A DNA stretch of 64,000 nucleotides from Helianthus annuus (lineage: Eukaryota; Streptophyta; Magnoliopsida; Asterales; Asteraceae), in contig NC_035436.2 in the NCBI RefSeq assembly GCF_002127325.2, positions 106,849,591 to 106,913,590 on the forward strand, in the 5' to 3' direction. The notes below the pieces were generated by a model. The model did not search any database, was not told the DNA's origin, and saw only the letters and a program-made list of their open reading frames with translations. The position numbers and the translations under genes are program-made. Below are positions 8,545 through 44,944 of this stretch, piece after piece; within the stretch, counting starts at the first letter, position 1; the number at the start of each line of letters is the position of its first letter.

Positions 8545-8549
8545 ACAAA
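8545..8549 (+). repeat. Target-site duplication of element B, left copy (ACAAA)
   Basis: ACAAA precedes the B 5' LTR and recurs at 18522-18526. The uninterrupted site in the A 3' LTR (near 45494) has a single ACAAA. Confidence 0.95.
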
Positions 8550-9214
8550 TGTGACAACCCGAATAATTAAGGATAGCACTACTTAAAATTCCACAACCTT
8601 TGGCGTGTACCTTTACGTTTGTTGCCTATCTTGTGCACCACTAAGTGTTTGCGTGTGTTTGATTGATTAACTATACAAGGAACCGTTAAACGCTAGTATG
8701 TGTCGATAAGCTAACTTAGAAAACTAACTTAATTGGGCTGCGAGTTACTTAACACATTTGGGCAACGAACTCGATTAAACACGTGATGTCTTGCGGCCCA
8801 CTCAAAACAAACTGATTTGTTAATGATGTATGAGATCGATAAAAGCCCACTATATGCTAGTCCATCCACGTGCACCCCTCTTTCCATGTGCGGCTGCATG
8901 TGATGAATAATGATATGTGTTAATGATGGATGATTGATAATTTTCCTCTCAAAACCTCCTGTGCACGTGAATGAGTGATCATATATTTGGTTTAATTAAT
9001 TGCACTTGTCTCTCAATTCCTTCCTTAAAGTCTGTGTGTACATCTCATGTTGAACTCGATTAACGCACACACACATTGACATGGGCTGGAGACCACACAT
9101 CCCTTTCCTCGGCCCACTCTACTCGGAGCCCATTCCGAGCGCACACACAAACCTAAGCCCAACTCGTGGGATTAAAGGCATGTACGCATGCATTAGGAAA
9201 CCGTTTCTTGGTAT

Positions 9215-9222
9215 CTTATAAA
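9215..9222 (+). promoter_or_regulatory. Probable TATA box of the B LTR
   Basis: TTATAAAC sits about 12 bp upstream of AAACCCTAA and just before a CT-rich leader. The B 3' LTR has the same element 7118 bp downstream (about 16333). Confidence 0.55.
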
Positions 9223-10561
9223 CACTTCAAACCCTAATTGATGGTAAACGACAACAGTAGAAGATCATCGCTACCCCTTCTTGTGTGTTAACCACCTATA
9301 CCTTCACGTCTTAATCGTCTGGTTAGTATCATCGTTCTTTTCTTCATTTACGTGATTATGTGTTGAGTTACATGAGTGTCGAGTAAGATCAAATCATGGG
9401 TAAATCTTGTTAACTGATAGTATATTAGTATGATGCTAAGTTACATGTAAATTGGCTATATAATGTTAAGTTACCTACGGATGTGTAACTGTTGGATTAA
9501 ACCATGTTGAAATAAATTGCTATGCATGTTGATGCTTACCTTGTTCACTTGATGCTTCTGGGTAGTTGAAAACATGTTTAAATAATGAGTTAACAAGATA
9601 ATGATGTAATAGAGAAGGATTGATGAATCATGCTCGGTTTTTCCTTTAATGTACAACTGTCGAAGCACCAGGTACAACCTGGTCATGCACACCATGAAAT
9701 CGTTAAGATGGTTTTATAGAATGAAATGTTACGAGAGTATCCTTCCTGTTAGTGTTTTCGTTAATGATAATGATGCTCCCTAAGCGAATTCGTCTCGACT
9801 CTTAGTGATTATATGCTTAATGTTCATAGATCGATCAAACGAGAAAAGAAAGAAAAGCATAGTTCTTGTGATTACGATACAGTTAGAATGATTAGGATAT
9901 ACCATGTTGATAATTGATATTTGATAATCGATGAACTGTTATATGTGCTTAAGAGATTGCCATCTTTTCTTTAGATCCGTATAATATGATATGGTGGGTG
10001 TGATGGTTGTATTGGTTGCGATCAATTAGGGAATTAAATGGTAATTGGTAAAACTAATATGTAATAATCATGGGGAGGAATAACTGAAAAGAAATTGTGC
10101 AAAGAATGAACGTGCAATTGCATGAAGATCGCACCGGTGGCCCAACATCACACCTCAACTGGGCTTCACAACTTGATTTGGGCCGTACACCAAGCAAGTG
10201 GGCCTTATTGTTTTGGGGTCGCACACGGGGTAGCCAACAGGATTGATTAATGGCACATGTAGTTGATTATGAACTTGTACATAATGTGTGTGTGATGAAA
10301 CATTGACATGGAGTAAGGCCAAGTGCATGATGTGAATGATGTGTATTGTAACAGTGATGGGTTGGTTGAAAACGTAAACTTGGGGTGTATCAAGAGGAGG
10401 TTTAAATATCTGCTACATGTTATATGATAAACTAACTTATGTGTGCAACCTGTTTAACATGTGATTGGAATAAATGTGGATCTAATGGTCGTTGGTGATT
10501 ATGTTAGGACTCGATTGACTGAATTATAATCAAGTAAACAATCTAACCGAGCAAAACCAAG

Positions 10562-11100
10562 GTGAGTTCACTGCACTTTTCTAAGCATGCGTCCCGGTGG
10601 TTTGGGACATCTGGTAAACGTTTCTGAAGGGAACACTGGGTAAACTGTTTATTTGGGATGTTGGTTATTGAACACAGTATAAATCATGTAAGACCCCATA
10701 CATCTACCGTGTTGCTGAAGAAGCAACGAGGTATTTAGTTGATAGCGCTATTAGGTTTGGCACCCTCACACCGGGCCGAAAGGACGGGCGTGAACTAATT
10801 ACCTGAACATCATGACCAATGCCTAGTTAAAGGCATTGGGGTTGGGCATTCACATCGTGTATATATATAAGACCCCTTACATCTATCCAAGGTTGGTTGA
10901 TACCTTGACATCATGACCAATGCCTAAATGGAGGCATTGGGGTTGGGCATTCACATCTAGTCGCCACATACGGTAATCGAGTAATAACAACATCAAAACA
11001 AAACGTTGAACTGTTGTAAACACACATCTGGTAACTAAACGCGTTAACAAAACTTTGAACTCACCAGCGTCGTCTGACACACTTGTCTGCACGCTTGCAG
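10562..11100 (+). other. Predicted structured intron in the B 5' LTR
   Basis: The donor is ACCAAG|GTGAGTTCA and the acceptor ACGCTTGCAG|GTC, 539 bp apart. GGTGAGTTCA (10561-10570) pairs perfectly over 10 bp with TGAACTCACC (11056-11065), 35 nt before the acceptor. Here the G-U wobble seen in the other families is a G-C or A-U pair, which supports selection for pairing. Confidence 0.6.
10816..10940 (+). repeat. Two perfect 8-bp hairpins in the B 5' LTR
   Basis: CCAATGCC - 8 nt loop - GGCATTGG occurs at 10816-10839 and 10917-10940. The loops are different and the arms identical. Each is followed by GGTTGGGCATTCACATC. They lie between the predicted donor and acceptor. Confidence 0.8.
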
Positions 11101-11405
11101 GTCTATTGAGTTATATCTTGTGGAACTTGCTGTCTGGGAGGCTGGAGTGGTCATGGGTCGAGATACATAGAATCGTAATACAAGCTTAATGGTTTATATA
11201 CACATGTTTTACGAAACACTTAACAAATGAGTTATGCTTCCGCTGTATACAATGAATGTCATGTAACATTTGTAACATTTTATGCTAATGAATGAAAGTT
11301 TTATTTAAATACATTTATGAGTTCAATGTGATTGGTGGCTTGGATCCTGGTACGTCACACGCCTCGCGGGGGTTTCCGCATGTGGTATTTTGGGGGTGTG
11401 ACAGC

Positions 11406-11420
11406 TTGGTATCAGAGCCA
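11406..11420 (+). other. Element B primer-binding site
   Basis: TTGGTATCAGAGCCA is complementary to the 3' end of plant initiator tRNA-Met and sits two bases after the LTR end. A hairpin with GGTTAT...ATAACC and GGTTTTA...TAAAACC arms follows. Confidence 0.9.
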
Positions 11421-12590
11421 CTGGTTATGGTGAACTTGGTTTTAAAAACGTTTTTATAAAACCAGACTATAACCGAACAGTTCTGAAAACGGGAATACGA
11501 CCATGACACTCAGCTCCAGATTGCAAGGTTCGTCTTTCTCACTTGTTGCCTACATTACATGGCTTGTACACATTTGTTTATGACGTAGCATACAGACACA
11601 CACTTGTCACTATAGAACGATTACATGAATTGCTTGCTTATATTATGATGCTTTGGTGGTATGTCATAGCCTTGCGATTTCTGTGATCTTATCGTTTTGA
11701 TAGCCTCTGTTTGGCACTCGAGTTTGGGGAACCATTTAACATGAGTTAGGAGGAACTGAGATGAACATGCAAATTGCAATATTATTGTGGGTGCACACAC
11801 AATAATAATGTGGGGTGCATGTGAGTCCCAGTAAGGCTTAACAAGTGAAAAAGGGGTTCTGTTTCGTTATTTGATCAATGTGAAACACAACAGTCTATAG
11901 GAGTCGTAGCAGTGATAGTCTCCTACTTGAACGTGATCTTTTCATTTCTCACGAAATCCTTGTGAATCTCGATGCTATCGAGTATTACTTGAACACCCAT
12001 CTGAACGCCTAGCGAACTGTGTAGAATGTTAGGTGCTTGTATGGACGCCATTGAGTTGAGCTTCACATCGTTTAATGATTGGTCTATACCTTTCTCACCT
12101 TTCTTTGTTTGCTGGAACATAATGTACTGACGTCTTAGACCCCGAAGTGCGATCACTTCTGCAGCACTCTCGAAACACACCGTGTAATACCCAGTCAACT
12201 TGCAAGAATAAGGGACAAGAGGATGAGTGTAGTGCCTTACCAACCTCAGTATTGAGACGACCCTGGTTACCGACAATGAACTCCAGCAGATTGACTTTAA
12301 TCGAATTCTTAACCCTTGTCTGCGGCCCATGGGAGCCAACTCTTACGAACCAATCGGGGCATAGGCGATGACAATTGACTATAGTGTGGAATGTGTGACC
12401 ACCAGCACAGTGAGTAGCGCGATGGGACGTGACACATAAGGTGAAAAGATGGATTTGGTTGGTGAAAGATCGTAGGGCTCCGTTTCAAGCAACAACGTTA
12501 GAGACAACAGTCACGGCGGTATCAAGGTATTTGTAACCATGGCCTACGGTATGGAAATGAAGGTGCCTATGACATGGATTGGCCGTTTTT
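11421..12590. other. Element B leader and unidentified interior
   Basis: After the primer site and leader hairpin I see no recognisable gag N-terminus here, unlike in A, C, D and F. The stretch carries an uninterrupted 138-codon minus-strand frame (11923-12339) that resembles no retrotransposon domain I know. It may be captured sequence or chance. The recognisable gag tail resumes near 12592. Confidence 0.5.
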
Positions 12591-12591
12591 A

Positions 12592-15460
12592 GAATCAAGA
12601 AGACAACAACCAAGGGAACGACGACAATAACAACACTGGAAATGATGCTCGTGGAAGGGCATTTAGGATTGGCGTAGGCAACGCCAAGTGTAATAACGGC
12701 ATGGTAGCTTGTATGCTTTTGGGTAACTAATCGTCTCAGTTATGTTCTGTTTAACGCTAATGCTTCTTGAAACCAAACCTGTTGTGGGGCCAACTGATGG
12801 CAAGTCAATGGAAACCTTCTATGTTCGTTGGGATGCAAACTCGACCTTGTGGGACAAGTGTTCGACATCGACCTTCCTTCCACTATTCTTGATGGTTTTG
12901 ATGCAGTAGTTAGTGTGGATTGGTTATCTCGAGATCGCGAAGATATACCCTGTGAAAAAAAAAATCGTGTATCTTTCTCCCTAGTGGAGAATCGTTATCT
13001 ATTCTAAAGCGTCAGAGTTATGCAAGGGTTAGCACCATTTCGTTTCAGCTATGTAGGCCCGGAAGTGTCTACGGTCACACCAGGAAGGTTGTAGGAACTG
13101 CCTAATCAACTTCAGGAGTTGTTGGACAGGAGTTTTGTCAGATCTAGCTCTTTTCGTGTTGGGGAGCCCCAATTATATCCGTAAAGATAAGCCTTTTCGT
13201 ATGCTTTCTGATTATCGAGAACTTAACAAGGTGACAGTCGAGAACCGTTTGCCTCGACCATGTATTGACAACTCCGTATTCCCTGACCTTTGGATTGATC
13301 GACACACCAGCAGCTTTATGGACCACAAGAATCGACCGTGTTTGTTGATGGCGTTTTGAATCATTACCAAGAGAAAGGAACAACATGGGCGACATATGTA
13401 TCCTATTTTTAGAGCTCCTGAGGGAGGAGCCACTCCGCGCGAAGTCTTGCTAAAAGGTAACTTCTGGAATCGAGAGGTACATTTTTGGTGATATAAACAA
13501 CGAAGTGGGAATACACGTGAATCTCACCAAGATACATTTTGTTAGAAACCGATCGACACCAAAGATCCGTTCGAGGATACAACAATTTCTTGGTCTCACT
13601 AGATACTATCGTAGATTCATCACAGGATTTTCGAAGATCGTGCAGCCTAAATCTCTTTAGCACAGCAGGGTGCTGTGTTCATGGAAGACGAAACAGGAGG
13701 ACGTCTTTTCAGCTTTCGAATCCCAACTCTGCAAAGCACTGAGCATCGTCTTTACTTAAGGGAACGGATGATTTAGTGGTATACGATGATGGTTCGAATC
13801 AGAGTTCCAGTTACACACCGATGCAGCACGAGGGGGTGATGACTCACGTAATGGAATTACGAAGAGGAACTGCACGACACACAACCTGCGGCGGAAACCA
13901 TGGTCTTTGGATTTAAGTTGGAGGCATTACTTGGACGGTACCGAATGCACTACTCAGACCGATCACAAGGGCCTCCGTGTACCCTGGTTTCGCAAGAGCT
14001 AAAACAGTAAATGACATTGCTGGATGGAACTTTTGGATGATTACGACTGTGAAACTTGGATGTGCACGAGCTTTGCAGCTCACTATCGACTCTAACTTAC
14101 CTGATCAGACTCGCTTTGTTCAAACTGGAGAACTGAAGGAAGAGGATTTTCAAGTTGAACCCATGAGGGGCATGGAGAAGCAACCTTTGGCAGGTCAGAT
14201 GATATTCGCTACCTTAAGGAACGAGTGTGGATCGCATTATATGGCAACTGTAGGGAACTCGTGTTGAGAAAAGCACACCGGCCTCAGCACTCTAGTCATC
14301 TGGATTTTTAGGATCTATAAATCTTGTACTGTTGATCGGGCATGAAGGCCCACCTAGCTATGTAGGTGAATGTTGGTTGACTTGTGGGAAGGCCAAGGTG
14401 AAGTATCAGCAACTAGCAACACCCATATGAAAATGAGAACAGACTGCCAGGGATTCTGTCGCTAGTCTACTTACAACTCGGAACGGAAACAATATCACCT
14501 GGGTGATCGTTGATTGTCTCACGTTACTAGCACACTTTCTTTCAATCAAGGAAACTGACGAGTCGTCACAGCTAGTGAATATTCCTTTGAGAGAGACGAC
14601 TTTTAAGCACGAAGTGCCAACTCCTGTTACCATTGATTTTGAACTATACCTGATTTATGACAGGCCATACACAACACCCTTGGCTCATATCTAGACATGA
14701 GCATTACTTATCCTTGTAGGACAACCAGACAGAGTAACGAACCATCCTGACTCACGAAGACATGCTGCAAGAACGTACGTGATTGACTTTAGTAAAATTT
14801 AAGGGATATTTACCTTTGGTTGAGTTCTACTACAGCAGTCACCATTCTAGTATTCAGACATCTCTGTTTGGGGCATTGCCTGGATGATAATACCAATCTT
14901 CTTGTTGGACTAGGTGGGGTGAAGACCTAATCACAGATCCAGGACTTGTACTCGAAACTCTTGGGAAGATTGCTTAGATCGGAAATTTTTTTGATGGCAA
15001 CGCGTGACTGTTAGAAAAGCTGATAAGCTTAGGAAAACACTGGGAGTTCGCTGTAGGCGAACGCGTTATCATCGAAAGTCTCACCCTGGGAGGGTGCGGT
15101 ACGCTACAGAAAGCGTGGCAAGCTTAGTTTACTATGCATTGGGACATTCGGATTTCTGGAACGAATCGGTAACATGGCTTACAAACTCGAGTTTACTAAC
15201 GAATTGGATAGTGTTCACAATGGCATTTATACCTTGGATCTAACGCAGTGTTTGTCCGATGAAACAGTTGTGACACCCTTGCTAGAACCTAAGATTAACG
15301 TTGAGTTGCAGTTTGTCGAATTCTATTGAAGTCATGGATCAGAAAATTAAGGTTCGTAAGCACAGTCAAATTCCAATCGTGAGAGTTCGTTGGAACTCAA
15401 GACGCGGACTAGAATGCACGTGGGAACACAATGATCGGAGTAAGCACTAGTATACTTAGC
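12592..15460 (+). pseudogene. Element B gag-pol remnants
   Basis: The Asn-rich gag tail NDARGRAF lies near 12592-12690. A protease tail (VDWLSRDRED) is near 12915-12945. RT fragments are [17 protein letters not shown] near 13208-13265 and IQQFLGLTRYYRRFI near 13577-13622. Integrase core remnants (VIVDCLTLLAHFLSIKETD) are near 14505-14565 and a chromodomain remnant ([11 protein letters not shown]) near 15370-15402. The active-site segments FIDD, the integrase D-35-E region and most of RNase H are missing or unreadable. Many stops and frameshifts separate the pieces, so nothing functional can be encoded. Confidence 0.85.
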
Positions 15461-15496
15461 TGTACAAATGGTTGCATCAACTTTTGGTATTATTAG

Positions 15497-15667
15497 CGAA
15501 TTTCGGGACGAAATTCCCTTTCAAGTTGGGGATGATGTGGCACCCGAGGAAAATCCACAGTCATCCTAATCTAACACTTTGCCGCTTTTTGTTACTTTTG
15601 GCTTACCGTGTCACTTTTGGTTTACTTATCAAATTTCGGGACGAAATTTCTTTCAAGTTGGGGATGA
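15497..15667 (+). other. Element B duplicated terminal palindrome and polypurine region
   Basis: Two copies of AATTTCG-GGA-CGAAATT, each followed by TTTCAAGTTGGGGATGATGTG, lie about 135 bp apart. The second copy abuts the LTR start at 15668. The first is followed by an LTR-start-like GTGGCACCCGAGG. Confidence 0.8.
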
Positions 15668-17679
15668 TGTGACAACGCGAATAATTAATGATAGCACTAC
15701 TTAAAATTCCACAACCTTTGGCGTGTACCTTTACGTTTGTTGCCTATCTTGTGCACCACTAAGTGTTTGCGTGTGTTTGATTGATTAACTATACAAGGAA
15801 CCGTTAAACGCTAGTATGTGTCGATAAGCTAACTTAGAAAACTAACTTAATTGGGCTGCGAGTTACTTAACAAATTTGGGCCACGAACTCGATTAAACAC
15901 GTGATGTCTTGCGGCCCACTCAAAACAAACTGATTTGTTAATGATGTATGAGATCGATAAAAGCCCACTATATGCTAGTCCATCCACGTGCACCCCTCTT
16001 TCCATGTGCGGCTGCATGTGATGAATAATGATATGTGTTAATGATGGATGATTGATAATTTTCCTCTCAAAACCTCCTGTGCACGTGAATGAGTGATCAT
16101 ATATTTGGTTTAATTAATTGCACTTGTCTCTCAATTCCTTCCTTAAAGTCTGTGTGTACATCTCATGTTGAACTCGATTAACGCACACACACATTGACAT
16201 GGGCTGGAGACCACACATCCCTTTCCTCGGCCCACTCTACTCGGAGCCCATTCCGAGCGCACACACAAACCTAAGCCCAACTCGTGGGATTAAAGGCATG
16301 TATGCATGCATTAGGAAACCATTTCTTGGTATCTTATAAACACTTCAAACCCTAATTGATGGTAAACGACAACAGTAGAAGATCATCGCCACCCCTTCTT
16401 GTGTGTTAACCACCTATACCTTCACGTCTTAATCGTCTGGTTAGTATCATCGTTCTTTTCTTCATTTACGTGATTATGTGTTGAGTTACATGAGTGTCGA
16501 GTAAGATCAAATCATGGGTAAATCTTGTTAACTGATAGTATATTAGTATGATGCTAAGTTACATGTAAATTGGCTATATAATGTTAAGTTACCTACGGAT
16601 GTGTAACTGTTGGATTAAACCATGTTGAAATAAATTGCTATGCATGTTGATGCTTACCTTGTTCACGTGATGCTTCTGGGTAGTCGAAAACATGTTTAAA
16701 TAATGAGTTAACAAGATAATGATGTAATAGAGAAGGATTGATGAATCATGCTCGGTTTTTCCTTTAATGTACAACTGTCGAAGCACCAGGTACAACCTGG
16801 TCATGCACACCATGAAATCGTTAAGATGGTTTTATAGAATGAAATGTTACGAGAGGTTCCTTCCTGTTAGTGTTTTCGTTAATGATAATGATGCTCCCTA
16901 AGCGAATTCGTCTCGACTCTTAGTGATTATATGCTTAATGTTCATAGATCGATCAAACGAGAAAAGAAAGAAAAGCATAGTTCTTGTGATTACGATACAG
17001 TTAGAATGATTAGGATATACCATGTTGATAATTGATATTTGATAATCGATGAACTGTTATATGTGCTTAAGAGATTGCCATCTTTTCTTTAGATCCGTAT
17101 AATATGATATGGTGGGTGTGATGGTTGTATTGGTTGCGATCAATTAGGGAATTAAATGGTAATTGGTAAAACTAATATGTAATAATCATGGGGAGGAATA
17201 ACTGAAAAGAAATTGTGCAAAGAATGAACGTGCAATTGCATGAAGATCGCACCGGTGGCCCAACATCACACCTCAACTAGGCTTCACAACTTGATTTGGG
17301 CCGTACACCAACCAAGTGGGCCTTATTGTTTTGGGGTCGCACACGGGGTAGCCAACAGGATTGATTAATGGCACATGTAGTTGATTATGAACTTGTACAT
17401 AATGTGTGTGTGATGAAACATTGACATGGAGTAAGGCCAAGTGCATGATGTGAATGATGTGTATTGTAACAGTGAAGGGTTGGTTGAAAACGTAAACTTG
17501 GGGTGTATCAAGAGGAGGTTTAAATATCTGCTACATGTTATATGATAAACTAACTTATGTGTGCAACTTGTTTAATATGTGATTGGAATAAATGTGGATC
17601 TAATGGTCGTTGGTGATTATGTTAGGACTCGATTGACTGAATTATAATCAAGTAAACAATCTAACCGAGCAAAACCAAG

Positions 17680-18218
17680 GTGAGTTCACTGCACTTTTCT
17701 AAGCATGCGTCCCGGTGGTTTGGGACATCTGGTAAACGTTTCTGAAGGGAACACTGGGTAAACTGTTTATTTGGGATGTTGGTTATTGAACACAGTATAA
17801 ATCATGTAAGACCCCATACATCTACCGTGTTGCTGAAGAAGCAACGAGGTATTTAGTTGATAGCGCTATTAGGTTTGGCACCCTCACACCGGGCCGAAAG
17901 GACGGGCGTGAACTAATTACCTGAACATCATGACCAATGCCTAGTTAAAGGCATTGGGGTTGGGCATTCACATCGTGTATATATATAAGACCCCTTACAT
18001 CTATCCAAGGTTGGTTGATACCTTGACATCATGACCAATGCCTAAATGGAGGCATTGGGGTTGGGCATTCACATCTAGTCGCCACATACGGTAATCGAGT
18101 AATAACAACATCAAAACAAAACGTTGAACTGTTGTAAACACACATCTGGTAACTAAACGCGTTAACAAAACTTTGAACTCACCAGCGTCGTCTGACACAC
18201 TTGTCTGCATGCTTGCAG
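17680..18218 (+). other. Predicted structured intron in the B 3' LTR
   Basis: It is the counterpart of 10562-11100, with the same donor, acceptor and length. The closing stem pairs 17679-17688 with 18174-18183, ten bp and perfect. Confidence 0.6.
17934..18058 (+). repeat. Two perfect hairpins in the B 3' LTR
   Basis: These are the counterparts of 10816-10940: CCAATGCC / GGCATTGG arms, two units. Confidence 0.8.
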
Positions 18219-18521
18219 GTCTATTGAGTTATATCTTGTGGAACTTGCTGTCTGGGAGGCTGGAGTGGTCATGGGTCGAGATACATGGAATCGCAATACA
18301 AGCTTAATGGTTTATATACACATGTTTTACGAAACACTTAACAAATGAGTTATGCTTCCGCTGTATACAATGAATGTCATGTAACATTTGTAACATTTTA
18401 TGCTAATGAATGAAAGTTTTATTTAAATATATTTATGAGTTCAATGTGATTGGTGGCTTGGATCCTGGTACGTCACACGCCTCGCGGGGGTTTCCGCATG
18501 TGGTATTTTGGGGGTGTGACA

Positions 18522-22016: not shown

Positions 22017-22530
22017 TGTGACAACTCGGACTTTAGACCTACCTTGTGTAACGTATGTGAACGTGTTATGATTACGAGCTTTGATTTAAATGAATGTTAT
22101 GTTATTATGTGCTACGTGTATTGCGTATTTAATGTGTGTTGCTATTAAAATCGGATCACACAACACGCACGGCCCAAGGGCAGCCCGATCGAATGGGCCG
22201 GCCCACTCCCTTATGCGCACCAATTAAACACATTAGGGACTTGGTTAGTTTTCTCATTTGTTACCAAAACCCTAACACACACAAGAAACCTAGCTCTCTT
22301 TTCTCCCTCTCATTCGCGAATCAAAGGCAGCCGTACCTCGGATCCCTTATCAAATCGGATCACCCTCGACCGATCGGTTAGTGTTTAAATTGTATTGTTT
22401 TGATTGATTAAATGATTTCATGTTCAATGTTGCGTATTGGTTGTTAATCGGCTGAATTGATGTTTGTTAAATGAGTGATTGATAATACGATTTGATGATA
22501 ACATGTTTGATTAAGCTTTGTTCGATCGGC

Positions 22531-22752
22531 CGGACTTGTTGGATCGGCCGGACGTGAATGTTGTTAACCGGCCGGATATTGCTTGTATGATAATTGGATA
22601 GTTGTTAATCGGCCGGATGATGTCATGATGTTAACATGATTGATCGATTCAGTTAGTATGATTGTTTGATTTGATTGTTGTTGAACGATTCGTGTAATGA
22701 TAACCGGCCGAACAGATTTGCTAATCGGCCGGACATAGATGTTAATCGGCCG
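22531..22752 (+). repeat. CGGCCGGA motif field in the C 5' LTR
   Basis: Seven copies or near-copies of (A/G)(A/T)(T/C)CGGCCGGA are set in AT-rich sequence at uneven spacing. CGGCCG is palindromic. The second copy of the field is at 29881-30102. Confidence 0.75.
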
Positions 22753-23027
22753 TTATGAATTGATATATGTTCGGATTCGTTAATCGGACCGTCAACTTGA
22801 TGATAATCGGATGCATGTTCATATAAATTGTTAAAGGTTGGTCCATGATATGATATTAGGGTTCGTTAGGGTTCTTGATAAAATACCATGTTTAGCCGAT
22901 AATTGGGTTAATTGATTTGTGGATCGGTGTTAATTGATAACTGTTAAGATGATTAATTGATTGGTAAATTGGAAACTGTTATGTGATTGTAACTGAATTC
23001 ACGATATCCGGTTACACAAATCTCAAT

Positions 23028-23385
23028 CCGGACGGATTGTAAACCGGACTGACATCCGCACGAACCAGCAGTCAGCACAGTCCGCACGAACTGTCAATCC
23101 GGACGGATTGTCACCCGCACGGATGATTCAATCCGGACGAACTGGCCACGCGAATGGACCACACGAATTGAACTGGTATGCCGCACCAGACCCCACTCGC
23201 ACGAACGACTAACCGCACGAATTGTTAAAACACATCCGGACCAACTGGCAGTCCGCACGAACTGCCCACCCGGATGGACAGTTAAACCGCACGAATTACC
23301 CATCCATCCGCACGGACCGACTGTCCGCACGGATTGGCTATCCGCACGAGGTGCCACCCGGACCAACTGCCACTCGCACGATTTG
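23028..23385 (+). repeat. CCGCACGAA / CCGGACGAA motif field in the C 5' LTR
   Basis: About 20 variants of TCCGCACGAACTG and TCCGGACGGATTG crowd 360 bp just upstream of the splice-donor-like site. They make the 90-codon minus-strand frame at 23094-23366, which I do not regard as a gene. The second copy is at 30378-30735. Confidence 0.75.
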
Positions 23386-23545
23386 ATTGATTTGTTTGGG
23401 CCATGCTTAGTGTGCTTGCTTGTTAACTCTATGTAACCCTACGTGCTATACGTGAATCGAACCTGACTTGAATAAATACATGATAGGACGTGATTGATCA
23501 ATTACTTGCTACCTGTTCACTTGTGTATCTGCCGAGCAAACCAAG

Positions 23546-24066
23546 GTGAGTTCACACAGCCAAGGCATGGGATTCCCGGGTTGGGAATTGGGTTGGATAT
23601 GTTATTGTTTACAGAGTTACTCGTACTTACGCATATACCAGACTATAGACCATCGTCCTCAGGTTAGTCAGGACACGTTGCGTAAAGCCTACGCAACCCA
23701 GATTATTTGCCATATGTCTCCCGGGTCGGGAGGACACGTTACGTAAAGCCTACGTAACCCAATACCATTCACTGGCTTCCAGTTCGGAAGGCCACGCTGC
23801 GTAAAGCCTACGTAGCCCTCACGCGTACCACTGTCCTCGGGGAAGGGCACGTCACGTAAAGCCTACGTGACCCTGTACGTTTTCCTGTTCTCGGTAAAGA
23901 AGAACACATGGTCGGAAGTTAGTCTAGTAAGTACCGTTGATGAGAAGCCCTCATTAACCAGGATGAACATGGGAAGCCCCCACTAGCTACACTTATGCAT
24001 GTTAGAACCTTACTTTCTGTGAACTCGCTCAACTAGTTTGTTGATTATTTGCTGCATGCCTTGCAG
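23546..24066 (+). other. Predicted structured intron in the C 5' LTR
   Basis: The donor is ACCAAG|GTGAGTTCACA and the acceptor GCCTTGCAG|GACC, 521 bp apart. 23546-23556 can pair with TGTGAACTCGC at 24018-24028: eleven pairs with one G-U. That strand ends 38 nt before the acceptor. The hairpin array lies between. Confidence 0.62.
23650..23900 (+). repeat. Covarying hairpin array in the C 5' LTR
   Basis: Four hairpins with a constant AAGCC loop lie at 23677-23697 (GTTGCGTA/TACGCAAC), 23738-23758 (GTTACGTA/TACGTAAC), 23796-23816 (GCTGCGTA/TACGTAGC) and 23851-23871 (GTCACGTA/TACGTGAC). Arms change in pairs. They alternate with second hairpins such as GGCTTCC...GGAAGGCC and GTTCT...AGAAC. Confidence 0.85.
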
Positions 24067-24348
24067 GACCTTAGGTATACATGGAGCTTGCACCAGAGGA
24101 GAAGCGGGTCGTTGTGGACAAGAACATGTGAATGCATATTAAACACTTTTACATTCATGCATTGATACTTATGATTTGGGTTTTACATTTAATGCTTCCG
24201 CTACATATATAACGTTTGGTTTTGAACATCAATTATACTTATGATTATTATTAAATGCTATGTTTGATATAATTGGTGGCTTGATCCTGGTCAGTCACGC
24301 CTCCAAGCGGTGGTACTCCGCAGTGTGGGATTTTGGGGGTGTGACAGA

Positions 24349-24363
24349 TTGGTATCAGAGCCA
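24349..24363 (+). other. Element C primer-binding site
   Basis: TTGGTATCAGAGCCA, complementary to initiator tRNA-Met, lies two bases after the LTR end. Confidence 0.95.
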
Positions 24364-24365
24364 TT

Positions 24366-24425
24366 GGTTATAGAGAACTTGGTTTTAATATGGGAAAACG
24401 TTTTTATTAAAACCGGACTATAACC
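24366..24425 (+). other. Conserved hairpin directly after the C primer-binding site
   Basis: GGTTATAG (24366-24373) pairs with CTATAACC (24418-24425). Inside, GGTTTTAATA (24381-24390) pairs with TATTAAAACC (24405-24414). The same two-part stem follows the primer site in A, B, D, E and F. Its position suggests a role in priming, dimerisation or packaging of the RNA. Confidence 0.8.
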
Positions 24426-24652
24426 AGTACAGTGCTCTCAAAGATCCACAACGACGCTTCGCTCCACGTGCAAGACTCGACATCCTAGGTAATAAGGTTT
24501 ATGTTTATTGCCTGTATGCTAGAATTGCTTAGAACCTTGCTCGCATTACGCTTAGATACACATGCTTTGATTTCATGAGAACACCTATATGCCTATGCTT
24601 TTCTGTCATCGCCCTATTCGCGAACCATTCTTACCTACGCTACCTTTTTACA

Positions 24653-27600
24653 ATGAAGATCATGTCTGGACGAGTTAACATGACACAAGCCCAGCTAGAG
24701 GCTCTCATTGCTACGGCAGTTGCAGCCGCTCAAGCAGGTCAACCCGCTCAGCAACAACCTGTGTGTACCTTCAAGAATTTCATGGACTGTCGTCCAAACA
24801 CCTTCAGCGGCACGGAAGGAGCAGTGGGACTACTCCACTGGTTCGAGAAGCTAGAATCAGTCTTTGAAATGTGCGAGTGCCCTGAGGCCCGCAAGGTCAA
24901 GTTTGCTACCGGTACTTTGGAAGGAATAGCACTGACTTGGTGGAACGCCCAAGTCCAGATCTTAGGGTTGGCAGCTGCTAACGCCACCCCATGGAACGAC
25001 TTTAAGGAACTCATCAAGCGTGAGTATTGCACGCGGGAAGACATACACAAGCTGGAAGACGAGCTTTATAACTTGAAAATGGTTGGATCGGAAATCGAGG
25101 CGTATACCAAACGGTCCAATGAGCTGGCCGTTCTGTGTCCTACTATGGTGGACCCTCCCTACAAGCGCATTGAGTTGTATCTCAAGGGATTGGCGCCAGA
25201 AATTCAGAGCCACGTGACGTCGGCTAACCTCGAAAACATCCAAGAAATCCAGCGTCTTGCTCACCGTATCACTGATCAGGCAGTGGATCAGAATAGACTG
25301 CCCAAGCGTGTTAATGCTACTGCTAATGTCACCACCTCAGTTACTCCTGCTACATCTGGTGACAGTAAAAGAAAATGGGATGGAGATTCTAGCAAAGGTT
25401 CAGCATCTGTTCAGCCACAAGCTCAGCAGCAGAAGATCGATCACTATCAGAGTCCCAGTCAGCAATCCTCTGGTGGTCACAGGCAGAGGAGATATCAGGG
25501 TAGTCAACCTAGGTGCCACAACTGCAACAGGCATCACCACGGCCCATGTAACAAGGGTCGTTGTCAAAGGTGCCTTAAGATGGGGCACGAGGCCAAAGAC
25601 TGTAGGAGTCCACGGCCTGCGAATCAGAATCAGCAGCCTCAGCAACCAGCTCCACAGAACCAGCAGCAGCAGCAGCAGCCACAGCGTGGAAACCGGGGAT
25701 GTTTCCAGTGTGGGGCTGAAGGTCACTTCAAACGCGATTGCCCCCAGTTGAACCAGAACCGCAACAACAATAACAACCAGGGCAACGGCAACAATAACGG
25801 CGGGAACAACAACAACGGCAATGAAGCTCGTGGTCGTGCTTTTGTGCTAGGTCGAGGCGATGCAGTGAACGATCCCAACGTTGTTATGGGTAAGTTTCTC
25901 CTCGACAATATTTACGTTACTGTTTTGTTTGATTCGGGTGCGGATACAAGCTATATGTCTGTGAAAATGTGTCAACTGCTAAAACGTGCACCAACACTTT
26001 TACCCACCAAACACGTAGTAGAGTTAGCTAACGGTAAAAGTTTAGAAGCCACGCACGTAGTTCAGGGTTGTAATCTTATCTTAGCCGGTCAAGCCTTCTC
26101 TATTGATCTCATTCCCATAGTTTTGGGTAGCTTCGACGTCGTGATTGGGATGGATTGGTTATCCCAACACCAGGCAGAGATCTTATGCAGTGAAAAGATC
26201 ATTCGTATTCCTCGTTCGGGTCAGGAACCTCTCGAAGTTCAAGGCGACAAGAGTGGTGCAGTGGTAGGCATCATCTCTTTCTTGAAAGCGCAGAAATGTT
26301 TACGAAAGGGGCACACTGCCATTCTGGCACTCGTCACAGACGCTTCAGCAAAGGAAAGGAAACTGGAAGATATACCAGTTGTACGTGACTATCCTCAGGT
26401 GTTCCCTGAAGACTTACCTGGACTACCGCCTCACCGTCAGGTCGAATTTCAGATCGAGCTCGCTCCGGGAGCAGCACCCATAGCTCGCGCACCATATCGT
26501 CTAGCTCCATCAGAATTGGAGGAACTGTCAAAGCAGCTACAAGAGCTCTTGGAAAAGGGCTTTATACGTCCAAGCTCTTCGCCTTGGGGAGCTCCAGTAC
26601 TTTTCGTGAAAAAGAAGGACGGTACATTCAGGATGTGCATCGACTACCGTGAACTCAACAAGGTGACGGTGAAGAACCGTTATCCTCTTCCGCGCATCGA
26701 CGACTTATTCGACCAGTTGCAAGGGTCGTGCTACTATTCGAAGATAGACTTGAGGTCGGGGTACCATCAGCTGAGAGTCCGGGATGAGGACGTCTCCAAG
26801 ACAGCCTTCAGAACTCGTTACGGTCACTACGAGTTTCTTGTCATGCCATTCGGGTTAACGAACGCGCCTGCTGTATTTATGGATCTTATGAACAGGGTCT
26901 GCAAACCCTATCTTGACAAGTTCGTCATATTATTCATCGACGACATCCTGATTTACTCCAAGAGTCAGGAGGAACATGAGCAGCATCTTCGTCTTATTTT
27001 GGAACTCCTTCGGAAGGAACAGCTGTACGCCAAACTTTCTAAATGCGACTTCTGGCTTCGAGAAGTCCACTTCTTAGGCCATGTAGTGAACAGAGATGGG
27101 ATTCATGTCGATCCATCCAAGGTAGATTCGATCAGGAACTGGCCTGCACCGCGTACGCCGACAGAAATACGACAATTCTTGGGTCTGGCAGGTTACTACA
27201 GACGGTTTATTAGAGACTTTTCGAAGATTGCTCAGCCGCTTACGCTACTGACACAGAAGGGTGTCACCTACCGTTGGGGCAACACGCAGGAAACTGCTTT
27301 TCAGTATCTGAAGGATAGGCTTTGCAGCGCACCTATTCTTTCATTGCCAGAGGGCACAGATGACTTCGTAGTATATTGTGATGCATCAATACAGGGTCTG
27401 GGTTGCGTACTTATGCAGAGAGATAAAGTTATTGCCTACGCCTCTCGTCAGCTAAAGGTTCATGAACGGAACTACACGACGCACGACTTAGAGCTGGGAG
27501 CTGTTGTTTTCGCGCTTAAGATATGGCGACACTACCTGTACGGTACCAGGTGCACGATTTACACCGATCACAGGAGTCTCGAGCATATTCTTAAGCAGAA

Positions 27601-29290
27601 GGATTTGAACATGCGTCAACGACGATGGGTTGAGTTACTTAACGACTACGAATGCGCTATCAAGTATCATCCAGGCAAAGCCAATGTTGTGGCTGATGCC
27701 CTTAGTCGAAAGGACACTTTACCACGGCGCGTACGAGCGCTACAGCTTACGATTCAGTCTAGCCTTCCAGCACAGATACGAGATGCTCAGATAGAAGCAT
27801 TGAAGCCCGAAAATGTCAAGGCTGAAGCCTTACGCGGCTCACGACAACAGATGGAACAGAAGGCAGACGGCGCCTACTATGTAACGGGCCGGATTTGGGT
27901 CCCTCTTTATGGCGGCCTACGCGAACTTGTGATGGATGAAGCTCACAAGTCTCGCTATTCGGTACATCCAGGGTCGGATAAAATGTACCACGACATCAGC
28001 ACTACTTATTGGTGGCCTAGTATGAAGGCCCACATTGCTACGTACGTTGGAAAGTGCTTGACCTGTGCGAGAGTCAAGGTCGAATACCAGAAACCAGCTG
28101 GCCTACTTCAGCAGCCTAAGATACCGCAATGGAAATGGGAGGAAATTTCCATGGATTTTGTTACGGGTTTGCCCAGATCCCAGCGTGGAAACGATACGAT
28201 ATGGGTCATAGTTGATCGACTCACCAAGTCTGCACACTTCTTGCCGATTAAGGAAACGGACAAGTTCTCCACTCTCGCAGACGTCTATCTTAAAGAAGTT
28301 GTCTCGAGGCACGGGGTGCCCACGTCTATCATTTCGGATCGCGATGCACGATTCACGTCAGAACTTTGGCAAGCAATGCACAAGTCTTTTGGCTCAAGGT
28401 TAGACATGAGCACAGCATATCATCCTCAGACGGATGGGCAGTCTGAGCGAACGATTCAAACACTAGAAGACATGCTTCGGGCATGCGTTATCGATTTCGG
28501 CAACGGCTGGGAAAAGCATCTCCCTTTGGTGGAGTTTTCTTACAATAATAGTTATCACACCAGCATTCAAGCCGCTCCATTTGAGGCATTGTACGGGCGT
28601 AAATGCCGGTCACCCCTCTGCTGGGCAGAGGTGGGAGATAGTCAGATCACGGGTCCAGAGATTGTAGTGGACGCCACAGAAAAGATCGCACAGATACGAC
28701 AACGCATGGCGGCAGCACGTGACCGTCAGAAAGCCTACGCAGACAAGCGTAGAAAGCCATTGGAATTCGAGGTCGGGGACCGGGTTTTATTGAAAGTTTC
28801 ACCCTGGAAGGGTGTGGTTCGTTTTGGCAAACGGGGCAAACTGAATCCGCGGTACGTCGGACCATTCGAAATCATAGAAAAGATTGGCAAGGTAGCCTAC
28901 AAGTTGAACCTACCAGCTGAACTCGGGGCAGTTCACAATGTCTTTCATGTATCAAACTTAAAGAAGTGCCTATCAGATGAAAACCTCATCATTCCTTTTA
29001 AGGAACTTACTATCGACGAGCGGTTGCAGTTCGTTGAGGAACCAGTGGAAATCACGGACCGGGATGTGAAGGTCCTCAAACACAAGAGAATCCCTCTTGT
29101 TCGAGTTCGTTGGAACTCCAAACGTGGCCCAGAGTACACCTGGGAGCGCGAAGACAGGATGACAGAAAAGTACCCCCAGTTATTCGGGAACCAGGCAACC
29201 ACTACTGAGGCTGAAGCTACTACTTCGGAATTTCGGGACGAAATTCCAGACCAACGGGGGGAGGATGTGACACCCCAGGAAAATCAGTGA
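24653..29290 (+). CDS. Element C gag-pol polyprotein, intact
   Basis: The frame has 1545 codons and no stop or shift. I chose the ATG at 24653 ([12 protein letters not shown]), shared with A and D, although the frame is open back to an ATG at 24575. Rough residue positions: gag about 50-200; zinc knuckles 288-317 and 350-363; Gln- and Asn-rich linkers; protease DSGAD 427-431; RT about 600-790 with FIDD 761-764; RNase H with D910, E947, D972 and D1015; integrase zinc site (H1098 to C1135/C1138) and catalytic D1188, D1229, E1265; GPF/Y module; chromodomain about 1460-1512. It should copy its RNA to DNA and integrate it, with targeting by the chromodomain. The spacing D1229 to E1265 fits the D-35-E rule. 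Confidence 0.96.
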
Positions 29291-29366: not shown

Positions 29367-30895
29367 TGTGACAACTCGGACTTTAGACCTACCTTGTGTA
29401 ACGTATGTGAACGTGTTATGATTACGAGCTTTGATTTAAATGAATGTTATGTTATTATGTGCTACGTGTATTGCGTATTTAATGTGTGTTGCTATTAAAA
29501 TCGGATCACACAACACGCACGGCCCAAGGGCAGCCCGATCGAATGGGCCGGCCCACTCCCTTATGCGCACCAATTAAACACATTAGGGACTTGGTTAGTT
29601 TTCTCATTTGTTACCAAAACCCTAACACACACAAGAAACCTAGCTCTCTTTTCTCCCTCTCATTCGCGAATCAAAGGCAGCCGTACCTCGGATCCCTTAT
29701 CAAATCGGATCACCCTCGACCGATCGGTTAGTGTTTAAATTGTATTGTTTTGATTGATTAAATGATTTCATGTTCAATGTTGCGTATTGGTTGTTAATCG
29801 GCTGAATTGATGTTTGTTAAATGAGTGATTGATAATACGATTTGATGATAACATGTTTGATTAAGCTTTGTTCGATCGGCCGGACTTGTTGGATCGGCCG
29901 GACGTGAATGTTGTTAACCGGCCGGATATTGCTTGTATGATAATTGGATAGTTGTTAATCGGCCGGATGATGTCATGATGTTAACATGATTGATCGATTC
30001 AGTTAGTATGATTGTTTGATTTGATTGTTGTTGAACGATTCGTGTAATGATAACCGGCCGAACAGATTTGCTAATCGGCCGGACATAGATGTTAATCGGC
30101 CGTTATGAATTGATATATGTTCGGATTCGTTAATCGGACCGTCAACTTGATGATAATCGGATGCATGTTCATATAAATTGTTAAAGGTTGGTCCATGATA
30201 TGATATTAGGGTTCGTTAGGGTTCTTGATAAAATACCATGTTTAGCCGATAATTGGGTTAATTGATTTGTGGATCGGTGTTAATTGATAACTGTTAAGAT
30301 GATTAATTGATTGGTAAATTGGAAACTGTTATGTGATTGTAACTGAATTCACGATATCCGGTTACACAAATCTCAATCCGGACGGATTGTAAACCGGACT
30401 GACATCCGCACGAACCAGCAGTCAGCACAGTCCGCACGAACTGTCAATCCGGACGGATTGTCACCCGCACGGATGATTCAATCCGGACGAACTGGCCACG
30501 CGAATGGACCACACGAATTGAACTGGTATGCCGCACCAGACCCCACTCGCACGAACGACTAACCGCACGAATTGTTAAAACACATCCGGACCAACTGGCA
30601 GTCCGCACGAACTGCCCACCCGGATGGACAGTTAAACCGCACGAATTACCCATCCATCCGCACGGACCGACTGTCCGCACGGATTGGCTATCCGCACGAG
30701 GTGCCACCCGGACCAACTGCCACTCGCACGATTTGATTGATTTGTTTGGGCCATGCTTAGTGTGCTTGCTTGTTAACTCTATGTAACCCTACGTGCTATA
30801 CGTGAATCGAACCTGACTTGAATAAATACATGATAGGACGTGATTGATCAATTACTTGCTACCTGTTCACTTGTGTATCTGCCGAGCAAACCAAG

Positions 30896-31416
30896 GTGAG
30901 TTCACACAGCCAAGGCATGGGATTCCCGGGTTGGGAATTGGGTTGGATATGTTATTGTTTACAGAGTTACTCGTACTTACGCATATACCAGACTATAGAC
31001 CATCGTCCTCAGGTTAGTCAGGACACGTTGCGTAAAGCCTACGCAACCCAGATTATTTGCCATATGTCTCCCGGGTCGGGAGGACACGTTACGTAAAGCC
31101 TACGTAACCCAATACCATTCACTGGCTTCCAGTTCGGAAGGCCACGCTGCGTAAAGCCTACGTAGCCCTCACGCGTACCACTGTCCTCGGGGAAGGGCAC
31201 GTCACGTAAAGCCTACGTGACCCTGTACGTTTTCCTGTTCTCGGTAAAGAAGAACACATGGTCGGAAGTTAGTCTAGTAAGTACCGTTGATGAGAAGCCC
31301 TCATTAACCAGGATGAACATGGGAAGCCCCCACTAGCTACACTTATGCATGTTAGAACCTTACTTTCTGTGAACTCGCTCAACTAGTTTGTTGATTATTT
31401 GCTGCATGCCTTGCAG
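30896..31416 (+). other. Predicted structured intron in the C 3' LTR
   Basis: It is the exact counterpart of 23546-24066. The closing stem pairs 30896-30906 with 31368-31378. Confidence 0.6.
31000..31250 (+). repeat. Covarying hairpin array in the C 3' LTR
   Basis: It is the exact counterpart of 23650-23900, with four AAGCC-loop hairpins and the alternating second set. Confidence 0.85.
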
Positions 31417-31696
31417 GACCTTAGGTATACATGGAGCTTGCACCAGAGGAGAAGCGGGTCGTTGTGGACAAGAACATGTGAATGCATATTAAACACTTTT
31501 ACATTCATGCATTGATACTTATGATTTGGGTTTTACATTTAATGCTTCCGCTACATATATAACGTTTGGTTTTGAACATCAATTATACTTATGATTATTA
31601 TTAAATGCTATGTTTGATATAATTGGTGGCTTGATCCTGGTCAGTCACGCCTCCAAGCGGTGGTACTCCGCAGTGTGGGATTTTGGGGGTGTGACA

Positions 31697-32847: not shown

Positions 32848-33422
32848 CTGCAAGGCATGTAACAGAGGATCAACAACTAGTTGAGCGAGTTCACAGAAAG
32901 TAAATGCGTAATAGTAAGTTTGTATGTAACAGATGGCTCTACTGGGCCGTTAGTACGTTCTATTGGTGGGGGCTTCCCATGTTGTATAACCACTAGACTA
33001 TTTGTAACCATAAGTATCCTTCACAACCGAGGATAGTAATAAGTATAAGTATCCTTCACATCCGAGGATAGTAATTTAGTATAAGTATCCTTCACATCCG
33101 AGGATAGTAATTTAGTATAAGTATCCTTCACAACCGAGGATAGTAGTATGTATAAGTATCCTTCACAACCGAGGATAGTAGTAAGTATAAGTCTACGTAG
33201 ATTGTAGGTATGTGTCCTGCACAACCGAGGACAGTGAATAGCATAAGTATGTGTCCTGCACAACCGAGGACAGTGAGTAGCATAAGTATGTGTCCTGCAC
33301 AACCGAGGACAGTGGTATGGTAGTCTAGTATTAGTGTCAGTACGAATCTATTCAACCTTATTCCTTCAATCCCATTCCCAAGCCCTTGGGAATCCCATGC
33401 CTTAGTAAGGGTGTGAACTCAC
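32848..33422 (-). other. Predicted structured intron in the D 3' LTR
   Basis: Read on the minus strand the donor is CCAAG|GTGAGTTCACA (33422 downward) and the acceptor CCTTGCAG|GTCG (ending 32848), 575 bp apart. Closing stem: 33412-33422 with 32885-32895, eleven pairs with one G-U. Confidence 0.6.
33015..33320 (-). repeat. Hairpin array in the D 3' LTR
   Basis: There are eight units. As printed on the plus strand, five are TATCCT - TCACAACCG - AGGATA and three TGTCCT - GCACAACCG - AGGACA. The second pair of the stem is A-T in one group and G-C in the other, a clean compensatory change inside one array. Confidence 0.85.
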
Positions 33423-38327: not shown

Positions 38328-39505
38328 GTACGCGCGGCCCCGGCGTCATTGTTTCGTCTGTTTCCCCCAACGCTATCACCATTGTCGTCCCTGTTTCCAT
38401 GGTCGTGGTTCTGAGTCTGGTCCTGGTTCATATGTGGACAATGCCTCTTGTAGTGATCTTTAGTATCACACTGAAAACATCCTTTAAAACTTTGTTGTTG
38501 CTGCTGATTCTGTGAAGATTGAGGCAGTCGTTGTTGTTCTTGAGTTACAGGACGTGAGTTTCGACAATCCTTAGCTTCATGACCAATCTTGAGACACCGC
38601 TGGCAACGACCCCTGTTGCACTGGCCACCGTGGTGTCTGTTACATTTGTTGCACCATGGGTGAATTCCTCGATATCTTTTCTGCCCATGACTACTAGAAA
38701 ACTGCTGTCTGGGGCTCTGGTAGTCATCTATCTCTTGCTGCTGCGTCAGAGGCTGGACCAAAATTAATCCCGTGCTCAGGTTTTCATCCCACTTGCGTTT
38801 GTTATCTCTAGAAGCACATGCAGTATCAGTCTTAGCTCGTTTCGGTAGTTTGTTCTGTTCTACAGCCTGGTCTGTGAGACGATGAGCCAGTCGAGTGGCT
38901 TGCTGGATAGTGCCAAGGTTAGCTGTGGTCATATGGTTCTGAATTTCGGGCACCAGACCCTTGAGATACAGTTCGATGCGTTTGGTGGGAGGGTCTACCA
39001 TAGTAGGACAAAATGTGGCTAACTCGTTTGATCTCCTCGTATAAACTTCAATTTCAGACCCCACCATCTGTAGGTTGAGGAACTCTACCTCAAGTTTGTG
39101 GATGTCCTCTCGACTGCAAAACTCTTCCTTAATTAAGTCCTTGAACTCGTTCCAAGGGGTGGCATTAGCAGCTGCCAGCCCTAACATCTGAACCTGTGCT
39201 TTCCACCAGGTTAATGCAGCACCTTCGAGTGTTCCAGTAGCAAACTTTACCCTACGTGACTCAGGGCAATCATGCACCTCGAAGTCAGTTTCGAGTCTCT
39301 CGAACCAATGGAGGAGGCCTTCAAGCCCCTCAGTTCCACTAAAGGTACTAGGTTGGCAATCCTTGAGATTTTTGAAGGTGCAAGCAGGTGACTGAGCGTG
39401 TTGACCTCCTGCTTGTATGGCTGCCAGTGCCGCAGCAATTCGTTCGTTAATGAGAGTCGTCAACTGGGCTTGTGTCATGTTGATATGTCCGGCCATGATC
39501 TTCAT
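38324..39505 (-). pseudogene. Element D gag, open frame of 393 codons
   Basis: It starts ATG at 39505 (MKIMAGHINMTQ) and runs through the gag core (FSGTEGLEGLLHWFERLET), three zinc-knuckle-like Cys/His clusters (CNKCNRHHGGQC, CQRCLKIGHEAKDC, CFQCDTKDHYKRHC) and an Asn/Asp-rich tail. It has no gag intron: the join reads IQAGGQHAQ with one extra Gly codon relative to C. The frame ends by a shift into GAART-stop just before the protease. The gag itself may still be translatable, although it is separated from pol. Confidence 0.88.
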
Positions 39506-39801
39506 AGCAAATGTAACGTAAGTGAGAGAGGTTCGCGAATAGTGCGATGACAGAAGAGTGTAAGCACGTAGGTGTTCTCAAGCAATAACAAGTAGTGAGC
39601 AGAAATGATGTAAGCATACTTCGAGCAAAGTTCTATGCAGTTCTAGCAAGCAGGTAATAAACATAAACCTTATTACCTAGTATGTCGAGTCTTGCACGTG
39701 GAGCGAAGCGTCGTTGTGGATCGTTGAGAGCACTGTTCTGGTTATAGTCTGGTTTTAAATAAAACGTTTTCCCATATTAAAACCGAGTTCTCTATAACCA
39801 A

Positions 39802-39816
39802 TGGCTCTGATACCAA
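39802..39816 (-). other. Element D primer-binding site
   Basis: On the minus strand TTGGTATCAGAGCCA lies two bases after the LTR end. The conserved GGTTATAG / CTATAACC hairpin follows (about 39740-39800). The leader to the gag ATG (39506-39738) holds no gene. Confidence 0.93.
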
Positions 39817-44778: not shown

Positions 44779-44944
44779 TGTGATTATGATATGCTTTGAC
44801 TGTCTACGTGCTATACGTGTTTGCTATGATTCATACGTGCATTACTTGAACCAAACCTGACTTGTATGGTAACCCTGTTAGGACGTGGTTGACCACTGTT
44901 AGTTCAAGAACCCTCTCCTTTGTGTATCTGCCGAGCAACCCAAG

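Follow-up and report, generated by a model that had tools for sequence, protein, structure and literature searches.

Introns within the long terminal repeats of sunflower Ty3/gypsy elements and a predicted donor stem that may help to divide mRNA from genome

Introduction

How retroelements apportion one RNA to translation and to replication has long been asked. The question is raised by the window examined here (the whole 64,000-nucleotide stretch of Helianthus annuus DNA that was analysed), a nest of Ty3/gypsy elements, here called A to F and element 1, with long terminal repeats (LTRs) of 2.3-2.9 kb. An initial annotation, made from the letters alone, held that every one of these LTRs carries a donor-like GTGAGT locked in a conserved, covarying stem, and proposed either a structured LTR intron or an RNA switch deciding between spliced mRNA and unspliced genomic RNA. 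In the available part of a 2025 review plant LTR elements are described as generally intron-free, with Ogre and EVADE as notable exceptions (PMC12786077), and the available parts of three sunflower papers describe Tekay elements as abundant and active in this species (PMC11728184, PMC12844716, PMC7730604). Here we ask whether the LTRs of the window contain introns, and what the stem might do to the RNAs that carry them.

Results

Element C and its leader

The two LTRs of element C (22017-24346 and 29367-31696) are 100% identical, and the frame between them is open over 1571 codons. Gag, protease, RT, RNase H and integrase domains were identified (five pieces scanned), i.e. the gag-PR-RT-RH-INT order of a Tekay chromovirus (Ty3/gypsy). 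At the integrase end SH3_Tf2-1 was matched and no chromodomain model was; the residues that follow SH3_Tf2-1 look chromodomain-like. Comparison with viral contigs gave 0 matches, and an Rfam scan of 22017-24760 returned two weak MIR4380 matches only, far below gathering. The features of element C are as follows, with introns numbered I1 to I3 and slashes marking splice junctions.

22017 to 24346, forward strand: 5' LTR, 2330 bp, with I1 and I2 complete and the I3 donor
22377 to 23486, forward strand: I1, 1110 nt, CG/GTTAGT..GATAG/G, the donor placed by comparison with copy L025 and D/E-type copies, a C-type I1 fossil being absent from the copies read
23487 to 23545, forward strand: exon 2, 59 nt, 0 ATG
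23546 to 24066, forward strand: I2, the intron at issue, 521 nt, AAG/GTGAGT..TTGCAG/G, removed in some genomic copies
23546 to 23556, forward strand: 5' arm of the donor stem, including the donor GT
23677 to 23871, forward strand: run of four AAGCC-loop hairpins, compensatory change at three pairs
24018 to 24028, forward strand: 3' arm of the donor stem, 38 nt before the AG end
24067 to 24074, forward strand: exon 3, the microexon GACCTTAG, 8 nt
24075 to 24658, forward strand: I3, GTATAC..ATGAAG, holding the LTR end and primer-binding site
24662 to 29290, forward strand: gag-pol frame, its ATG 3 nt past the I3 acceptor (the mechanical ORF begins at 24575)

Motifs resembling GCTTCCGCT and TGGCTTGATCCTGGTCAGTCACGC lie near the LTR 3' ends (e.g. 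24190-24346) of A-F, B included, and are possible poly(A) or replication signals. Separately, a primer-binding-like TGGTATCAGAGCC at 47642, downstream of element 1, apparently comes from a different element.

Splice sites and leader structure

The donors lie where they had first been placed in ten LTR copies, and the copy at 7997 likewise has a complete intron. Beyond the C 5' LTR, the corresponding stretches are:

7997 to 8465, forward strand: I2 in the A 5' LTR, complete, a 3'-arm change breaking one stem pair
10562 to 11100, forward strand: I2-like stretch in the B 5' LTR, stem GGTGAGTTCA/TGAACTCACC, spliced copy not found
17680 to 18218, forward strand: I2-like stretch in the B 3' LTR, stem and sites as in the B 5' LTR
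30896 to 31416, forward strand: I2 in the C 3' LTR
32848 to 33422, reverse strand: I2 in the D 3' LTR
40118 to 40692, reverse strand: I2 in the D 5' LTR
44945 to 45413, forward strand: I2 in the A 3' LTR
45869 to 46867, forward strand: 999-nt stretch of element 1 resembling I2, with a donor stem of 12 bp, spliced copy not found
54683 to 55161, forward strand: I2 in E
58503 to 59056, forward strand: I2 in F

The acceptor ends at 45413 in A, 11100 and 18218 in B, 24066 and 31416 in C, 55161 in E, 59056 in F and 46867 in element 1, and on the minus strand at 32848 and 40118 in D; intron lengths of 469-999 nt in the copies examined agree with the donor-acceptor spacing of the initial annotation. 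In A, C, D, E and F, I2 measures 0.47-0.58 kb and lies wholly within the LTR. Chance donor motifs are ruled out, the donor with its exon pattern occurring at 56,230 sites genome-wide as against 1 and 0 for the reversed-pattern control.

The picture of a lone intron had to be abandoned: the LTR leader has three, of which I2 is one. I1 (0.95-1.29 kb) lies wholly within the LTR upstream of I2, and I3 (about 0.6 kb) starts inside the LTR, spans the LTR end and the primer-binding site, and stops just before the gag ATG. Exon 2 is 59-64 nt long and exon 3 is 8 nt in all five elements, its ends outside the C type being placed by similarity; the primer-binding site falls within I3 in four of four elements. 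The leaders of the other elements are laid out thus:

A, forward strand: I1 43824-44881, exon 2 44882-44944, exon 3 45414-45421
D, reverse strand: I1 40757-42002, exon 2 40693-40756, exon 3 40110-40117, I3 39500-40109
E, forward strand: I1 53332-54618, exon 2 54619-54682, exon 3 55162-55169, I3 55170-55773
F, forward strand: I1 57489-58441, exon 2 58442-58502, exon 3 59057-59064, I3 59065-59654

All three introns have plant-like GT..AG ends in the elements read. I2 looks like a weak plant intron, since it is less U-rich (U content 0.25-0.31) and more G+C-rich (0.41-0.49) than I1 and I3 of the same element. I1 of C, D (minus strand) and E is packed with short degenerate repeats whose type varies by lineage: those of D and E resemble TCCGAGTTT, those of C TCCGCACGG/CGGCCGGA. 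The acceptor CAG of I2 is part of a small hairpin, CTGCATGCCTTGCAG (CTGCA..TGCAG), in the A 3' LTR, C (24052-24066), E and F, with a variant in B; the hairpin was not found in D or element 1.

Intron-free copies in the genome

The genome scanned for junctions comprised 3.010 Gb, with matches on contigs C1-C17. Fused I2 exon junctions were found at nine sites (three mismatches or fewer), in six elements. With the reversed control of this pattern there were 5 forward and 0 reverse matches; by number alone the three-mismatch matches could thus be chance, a point in favour of a reading without splicing, in which the short LTRs arose by DNA deletion or the long ones gained insertions. All nine sites, when read, nevertheless proved to be element sequence, eight with LTR on both flanks and the ninth (L028) with LTR followed by gag. 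Four elements (L036, L039, L040 and L041) are without I2 in both LTRs and retain a primer-binding site; their LTR identities are 99.4, 98.6, 99.2 and 98.9%, and they are bounded by the perfect 5-bp target-site duplications aaatg, gcaca, aatgt and gagga, respectively. L039 has a substitution at the first base of exon 3. A spliced RNA that is reverse-transcribed should give rise to an element with I2 missing from both LTRs, both being copied from its spliced 5' end; the expectation that splicing would delete part of the LTR is thus borne out by these exon-fused copies.

Alignment of the L039, L040 and L041 LTRs (774-787 bp) with E and D shows a further 1.2-1.3 kb to be absent, corresponding to I1, with the gap bounded by TCAAG/GTAATT and by CTTAG or CCTAG/GTCGTG. 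L036 (892 bp) and L025 look I1-free too, less certainly, having been read without an intron-bearing sibling. Among the best 40 of 10,201 matches to the L041 LTR, the nearest intron-bearing relative is 99% identical over bases 1-422; exon 1 of L041 ends at 420, and the match reaches 422 since both continue with GT. This relative carries I1 as CAACACAAG/GTAAATG..CCTAG/GTCGTGTG and, further on, I2 as CCAAG/GTGAGT..TTGCAG/GTCGTTAG, and L041 is the same with both introns removed. Thirty of these best 40 of 10,201 matches end at the exon 1 end, eight apparently lack I1 only, and two (L041 itself) cover the full span; of the 38 rows other than L041, five were read in sequence.

Loss of I1 alone was also observed. 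In L066-L069 I1 is gone, the I2 donor is kept in 4/4 and the I2 acceptor is matched in 3/4; L067 and L068 show an exact I1 join, L066 a join with one substitution, and L069 a two-base difference there. Across the genome, 42 sites carry the E/D-type I1 junction (11 exact; control 0 and 0), mostly paired, 5-7 kb apart, and two of these sites (on C3 and C9) are L067 and L066. Since none of the 42 coincides with the nine I2-junction sites, I1 has been lost more often than I2, and the existence of I1-free copies means that RNA with an intron already removed is sometimes reverse-transcribed. I2-junction sites number about 1e-4 of donor-bearing sites (9 vs 56,230), a ratio to be taken as an order of magnitude only, as the two patterns catch different families.

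The intron-free LTRs are not monophyletic. In a tree of 14 rows and 298 columns, with B and five near-identical rows omitted, a single clade of such LTRs was rejected (p-AU 7.8e-10), D grouping with L040 (support 100/100) and E with L039 (96/94). The two-base offset of L069 would suit an origin by deletion or insertion, but boundaries at the GT..AG ends of two introns, in both LTRs and in copies that do not form one clade, together with the empty I1 control, leave that origin very improbable.

One further junction bears on I3. In L028/L034 exon 2 is followed directly by GACCTTAG and then by ATCATG of gag, i.e. I2 and I3 have both been removed, from which it follows that exon 3 is an 8-nt microexon and that I3 strips the LTR end and primer-binding site. 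The element concerned (L034/L038, G000:C10:163580500-163593400) has the fused exon 2/exon 3/gag sequence in its 5' LTR and an intact 556-nt I2 in its 3' LTR; upstream of the junction the two LTRs are identical for 1392 bp, and atgaa occurs at either end of the element as a perfect 5-bp duplication. With a 5' LTR that is without the primer-binding site and two introns beside an intact 3' LTR, it looks like a template-switch product of unspliced and spliced RNA during reverse transcription. The doubly spliced junction was found at seven sites, one of them exact; the other six, at three mismatches, are noise-like (control 150 and 137; flanks of three checked) and were set aside.

Spliced junctions of B and of element 1 were found at 0 sites genome-wide in each case. 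The notion of a structured LTR intron is therefore upheld for the A/C/D/E/F-type, in which exon fusions at the predicted sites show removal in genomic copies, and splicing is unsupported for B and element 1.

The donor stem of I2

The initial annotation had placed a donor stem in every LTR; a stem of 9-12 bp is present in ten copies, and in the A copy at 7997 pair 10 is broken. The stem has 11 bp in A, C, D, E and F, 12 bp in element 1, and in B 9 bp inside the intron or 10 with a flanking G-C. The 3' arm stops 36-40 nt short of the AG, within the range of about 35-45 nt first given. When single bases of the last 120 nt were shuffled, the stem was reached in 8-30 of 20,000 shuffles for A, C, D, E and F, 13 for element 1 and 277 for B; whole-intron shuffles reached it in 11-56 of 3000, and for B in 387 of 3000, so that the B stem is unremarkable on its own. 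Pair probability is 0.94-1.0 in six of seven folds and 0.72 in E, where the top-ranked fold replaces the donor stem by a small local hairpin. Whole-intron stability was set aside as evidence of structure, z scores being mixed: -0.8 (A), -2.4 (B), -2.8 (C), +0.2 (D), -1.8 (E), -2.2 (F) and -1.3 (element 1).

The stem is restricted to I2. In I1 and I3 the best pairing between donor and acceptor end is 4-9 bp and is matched by 103-1833 of 2000 shuffles, as against 0-5 of 2000 for the I2 stem in the same test. The arms are kept in 10/10 C-type readings (9 loci), in 16/16 element-1 loci (14 in full, two with one mismatch) and in 16/16 B-type loci, the best of 12 registers having been taken in scoring the C-type and element-1 loci. 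Covariation is thinner than had been claimed: compensatory changes do occur across three lineages, but at only three pairs, counted as changed on both sides among eight distinct arm pairs, and A (3' LTR), C, D, E and F add none among themselves because their arms are identical. The covariation score was reached by 0/500 shuffles and the number of covarying pairs by 119/500.

Element B (8549-18521, LTRs 99.3% identical), which is inserted at 8549, downstream of I2 in the A 5' LTR, has no interior frame over 138 aa and only scraps resembling RT and integrase, and is probably a non-autonomous element mobilised by others. The role of the stem is thus not confined to Gag production in cis, since this coding-broken element keeps it.

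Predicted stem pairing energies (-15.7, -15.1 and -16.6 kcal/mol) are alike though the sequences differ, and predicted U1 pairing at the I2 donor (-10.2 to -11.7 kcal/mol) is weaker than the stem, in a comparison that excludes the cost of closing the long loop. A stem over a splice donor usually lowers splicing. The opposite effect is also conceivable, namely that the stem promotes I2 splicing by bringing the donor to the branch region and looping out a hairpin-rich intron, and that U1 opens the stem. By joining the intron ends, a stem that closes I2 could aid splicing, and the 3' arm stops just upstream of the likely branch region even though the introns range from 469 to 999 nt. We consider this unlikely, however, as the stem covers six of the nine U1-pairing bases and is predicted to be stronger than U1 pairing, and as I2-free copies are very rare and I1-free copies without the I2 fusion commoner (42 sites, with the donor kept in all four copies read).

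The presence of the donor in both LTRs would also suit a role in poly(A) control, in which the donor mainly recruits U1 to block premature polyadenylation in the 5' LTR and the stem frees the site in the 3' LTR; according to the available part of one study, foamy viruses use a structured LTR donor in this way (PMC3694450). Such a role is quite improbable here, given that I2 removal at a matched acceptor is seen in genomic copies and that transcripts of both LTRs could fold the same stem.

Hairpins inside I2

Hairpins in I2 exceed those of shuffled sequences in C, D and F (0/100 shuffles); A, B and E show a weaker excess (17, 10 and 9/100) and element 1 shows none (96/100). I1 has no hairpin excess over shuffles, with the possible exception of F (10 vs 5.8, sd 2.2). 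The C/F hairpins include three compensatory pairs in four distinct rows, a number reached by 24/500 shuffles. These features raise the possibility that I2 is chiefly a packaging or dimerisation domain, in which Gag would bind the stem and hairpin array and splicing would mark mRNA by removing them. The hairpin excess in C, D and F, the compensatory changes, the retention of the stem by the broken element B and the rarity of fused-exon sites (~1e-4 of donor-bearing sites) speak for it; the weak or absent excess in the other elements, the differing array sequences among lineages, and the integration, with proper duplications, of four elements without I2 in either LTR speak against it. On balance a predominant packaging role seems rather unlikely, although it is compatible with a brake exerted by the stem, and the 42-site I1 count suits both equally.

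Start codons in spliced and unspliced leaders

The spliced leaders of A, C, D, E and F contain 0 ATG in 1,113 nt, where 32.8 would be expected from the ATG density of the introns of those elements. For exon 1 the count covered its final 150 nt, a chosen length, and a longer leader could add ATGs; in E there is one further upstream in the exon 1 region. The gag ATG follows 3-4 nt past the I3 junction. The corresponding unspliced stretches contain 51 (A, without I3), 61, 64, 73 and 62 ATGs. The proposed division between spliced mRNA and unspliced genome thereby gains indirect support, from the ATG-free leader, from the loss of the primer-binding site with I3 and from the rarity of I2-free copies.

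Discussion

Taken together, I1 and I2 have been removed at the predicted sites in genomic copies, in one case I2 and I3 together, the stem is conserved and the spliced leader is free of ATG. On this sequence evidence we favour, with a probability of roughly 0.7, a model in which the spliced RNA would serve as gag-pol mRNA and the unspliced RNA as genome, and in which the stem would brake I2 splicing. Transcription would start in the LTR, and removal of the three introns would give a gag-pol mRNA with an ATG-free leader ending 3-4 nt from gag; without its primer-binding site such a fully spliced RNA would be unable to start normal reverse transcription, and RNA that keeps I2 and I3 would be packaged as the usual genome. 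The long-range stem over the I2 donor would form only after the 3' end of I2 is transcribed, and since transcription of its 3' arm follows that of the donor by some 420-950 nt, there is an interval in which U1 can act before the stem exists. Competition between U1 and the stem might then set the share of transcripts retaining I2, the stem most likely acting as a brake that leaves part of the transcripts unspliced. Its position, predicted stability and restriction to I2 make it reasonable to infer that the stem is the switch. The fullest form of the proposal, in which an LTR splits mRNA from genome by splicing its own sequence, with two LTR introns and a microexon, an I3 that strips the primer site and a late stem that races U1, is tentative, and we would put it somewhat below even odds.

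Partial parallels exist. HIV-2 and SIVmac have a leader intron in R-U5, the removal of which has been reported to favour Gag translation. The likeness, an intron within an LTR-derived leader, is to an animal retrovirus with a single short intron; to our knowledge a three-intron leader, a microexon or removal of the primer-binding site is not known there. In foamy virus, as far as the available text goes, the major splice donor lies in the LTR R region and RNA structure is tied to U1 access, with a role in poly(A) control (PMC3694450). Donors that are structured and present in both LTRs are thus common to both systems, the structure here being predicted; that text describes no whole LTR intron, whereas two are present here, with removal seen in copies. 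Among plant LTR elements, the available part of a BARE1 study reports separate RNA pools for translation and replication, to which splicing contributes; the pools are likewise split, but there 104 nt are spliced at the start of the pr domain, outside the LTR and leader, and the product is a Gag-only RNA (PMC3735527). Ogre and EVADE likewise have alternatively spliced introns which, unlike those described here, lie in or between coding parts, according to the available portions of the sources (PMC12786077, PMC6317226). Maize CRM1 circular RNAs were considered as a parallel and rejected, as what is described in the available text does not concern LTR introns (PMC7010299).

In sunflower, splicing has been reported for two Ty1/copia elements, Tekay being missing from the expressed set in the available part of that study (PMC7730604). 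The sunflower Tekay elements of earlier work are possibly the same as those of the window, or close kin, and LTR introns are unreported in the available parts of those papers (PMC11728184, PMC12844716, PMC7730604). The literature searched, mainly open-licence papers and in part available as excerpts, held no description of a plant LTR with whole introns.

The introns make up the greater part of these long LTRs, and the intron-free copies suggest that short-LTR relatives can arise through reverse transcription of spliced RNA. Annotation of LTRs as mere promoter and terminator overlooks such leader exons. Products of several splicing routes are preserved in the sunflower genome, within a family that numbers tens of thousands of LTR copies, and this makes the proposed division of one RNA between translation and replication testable with RNA data.
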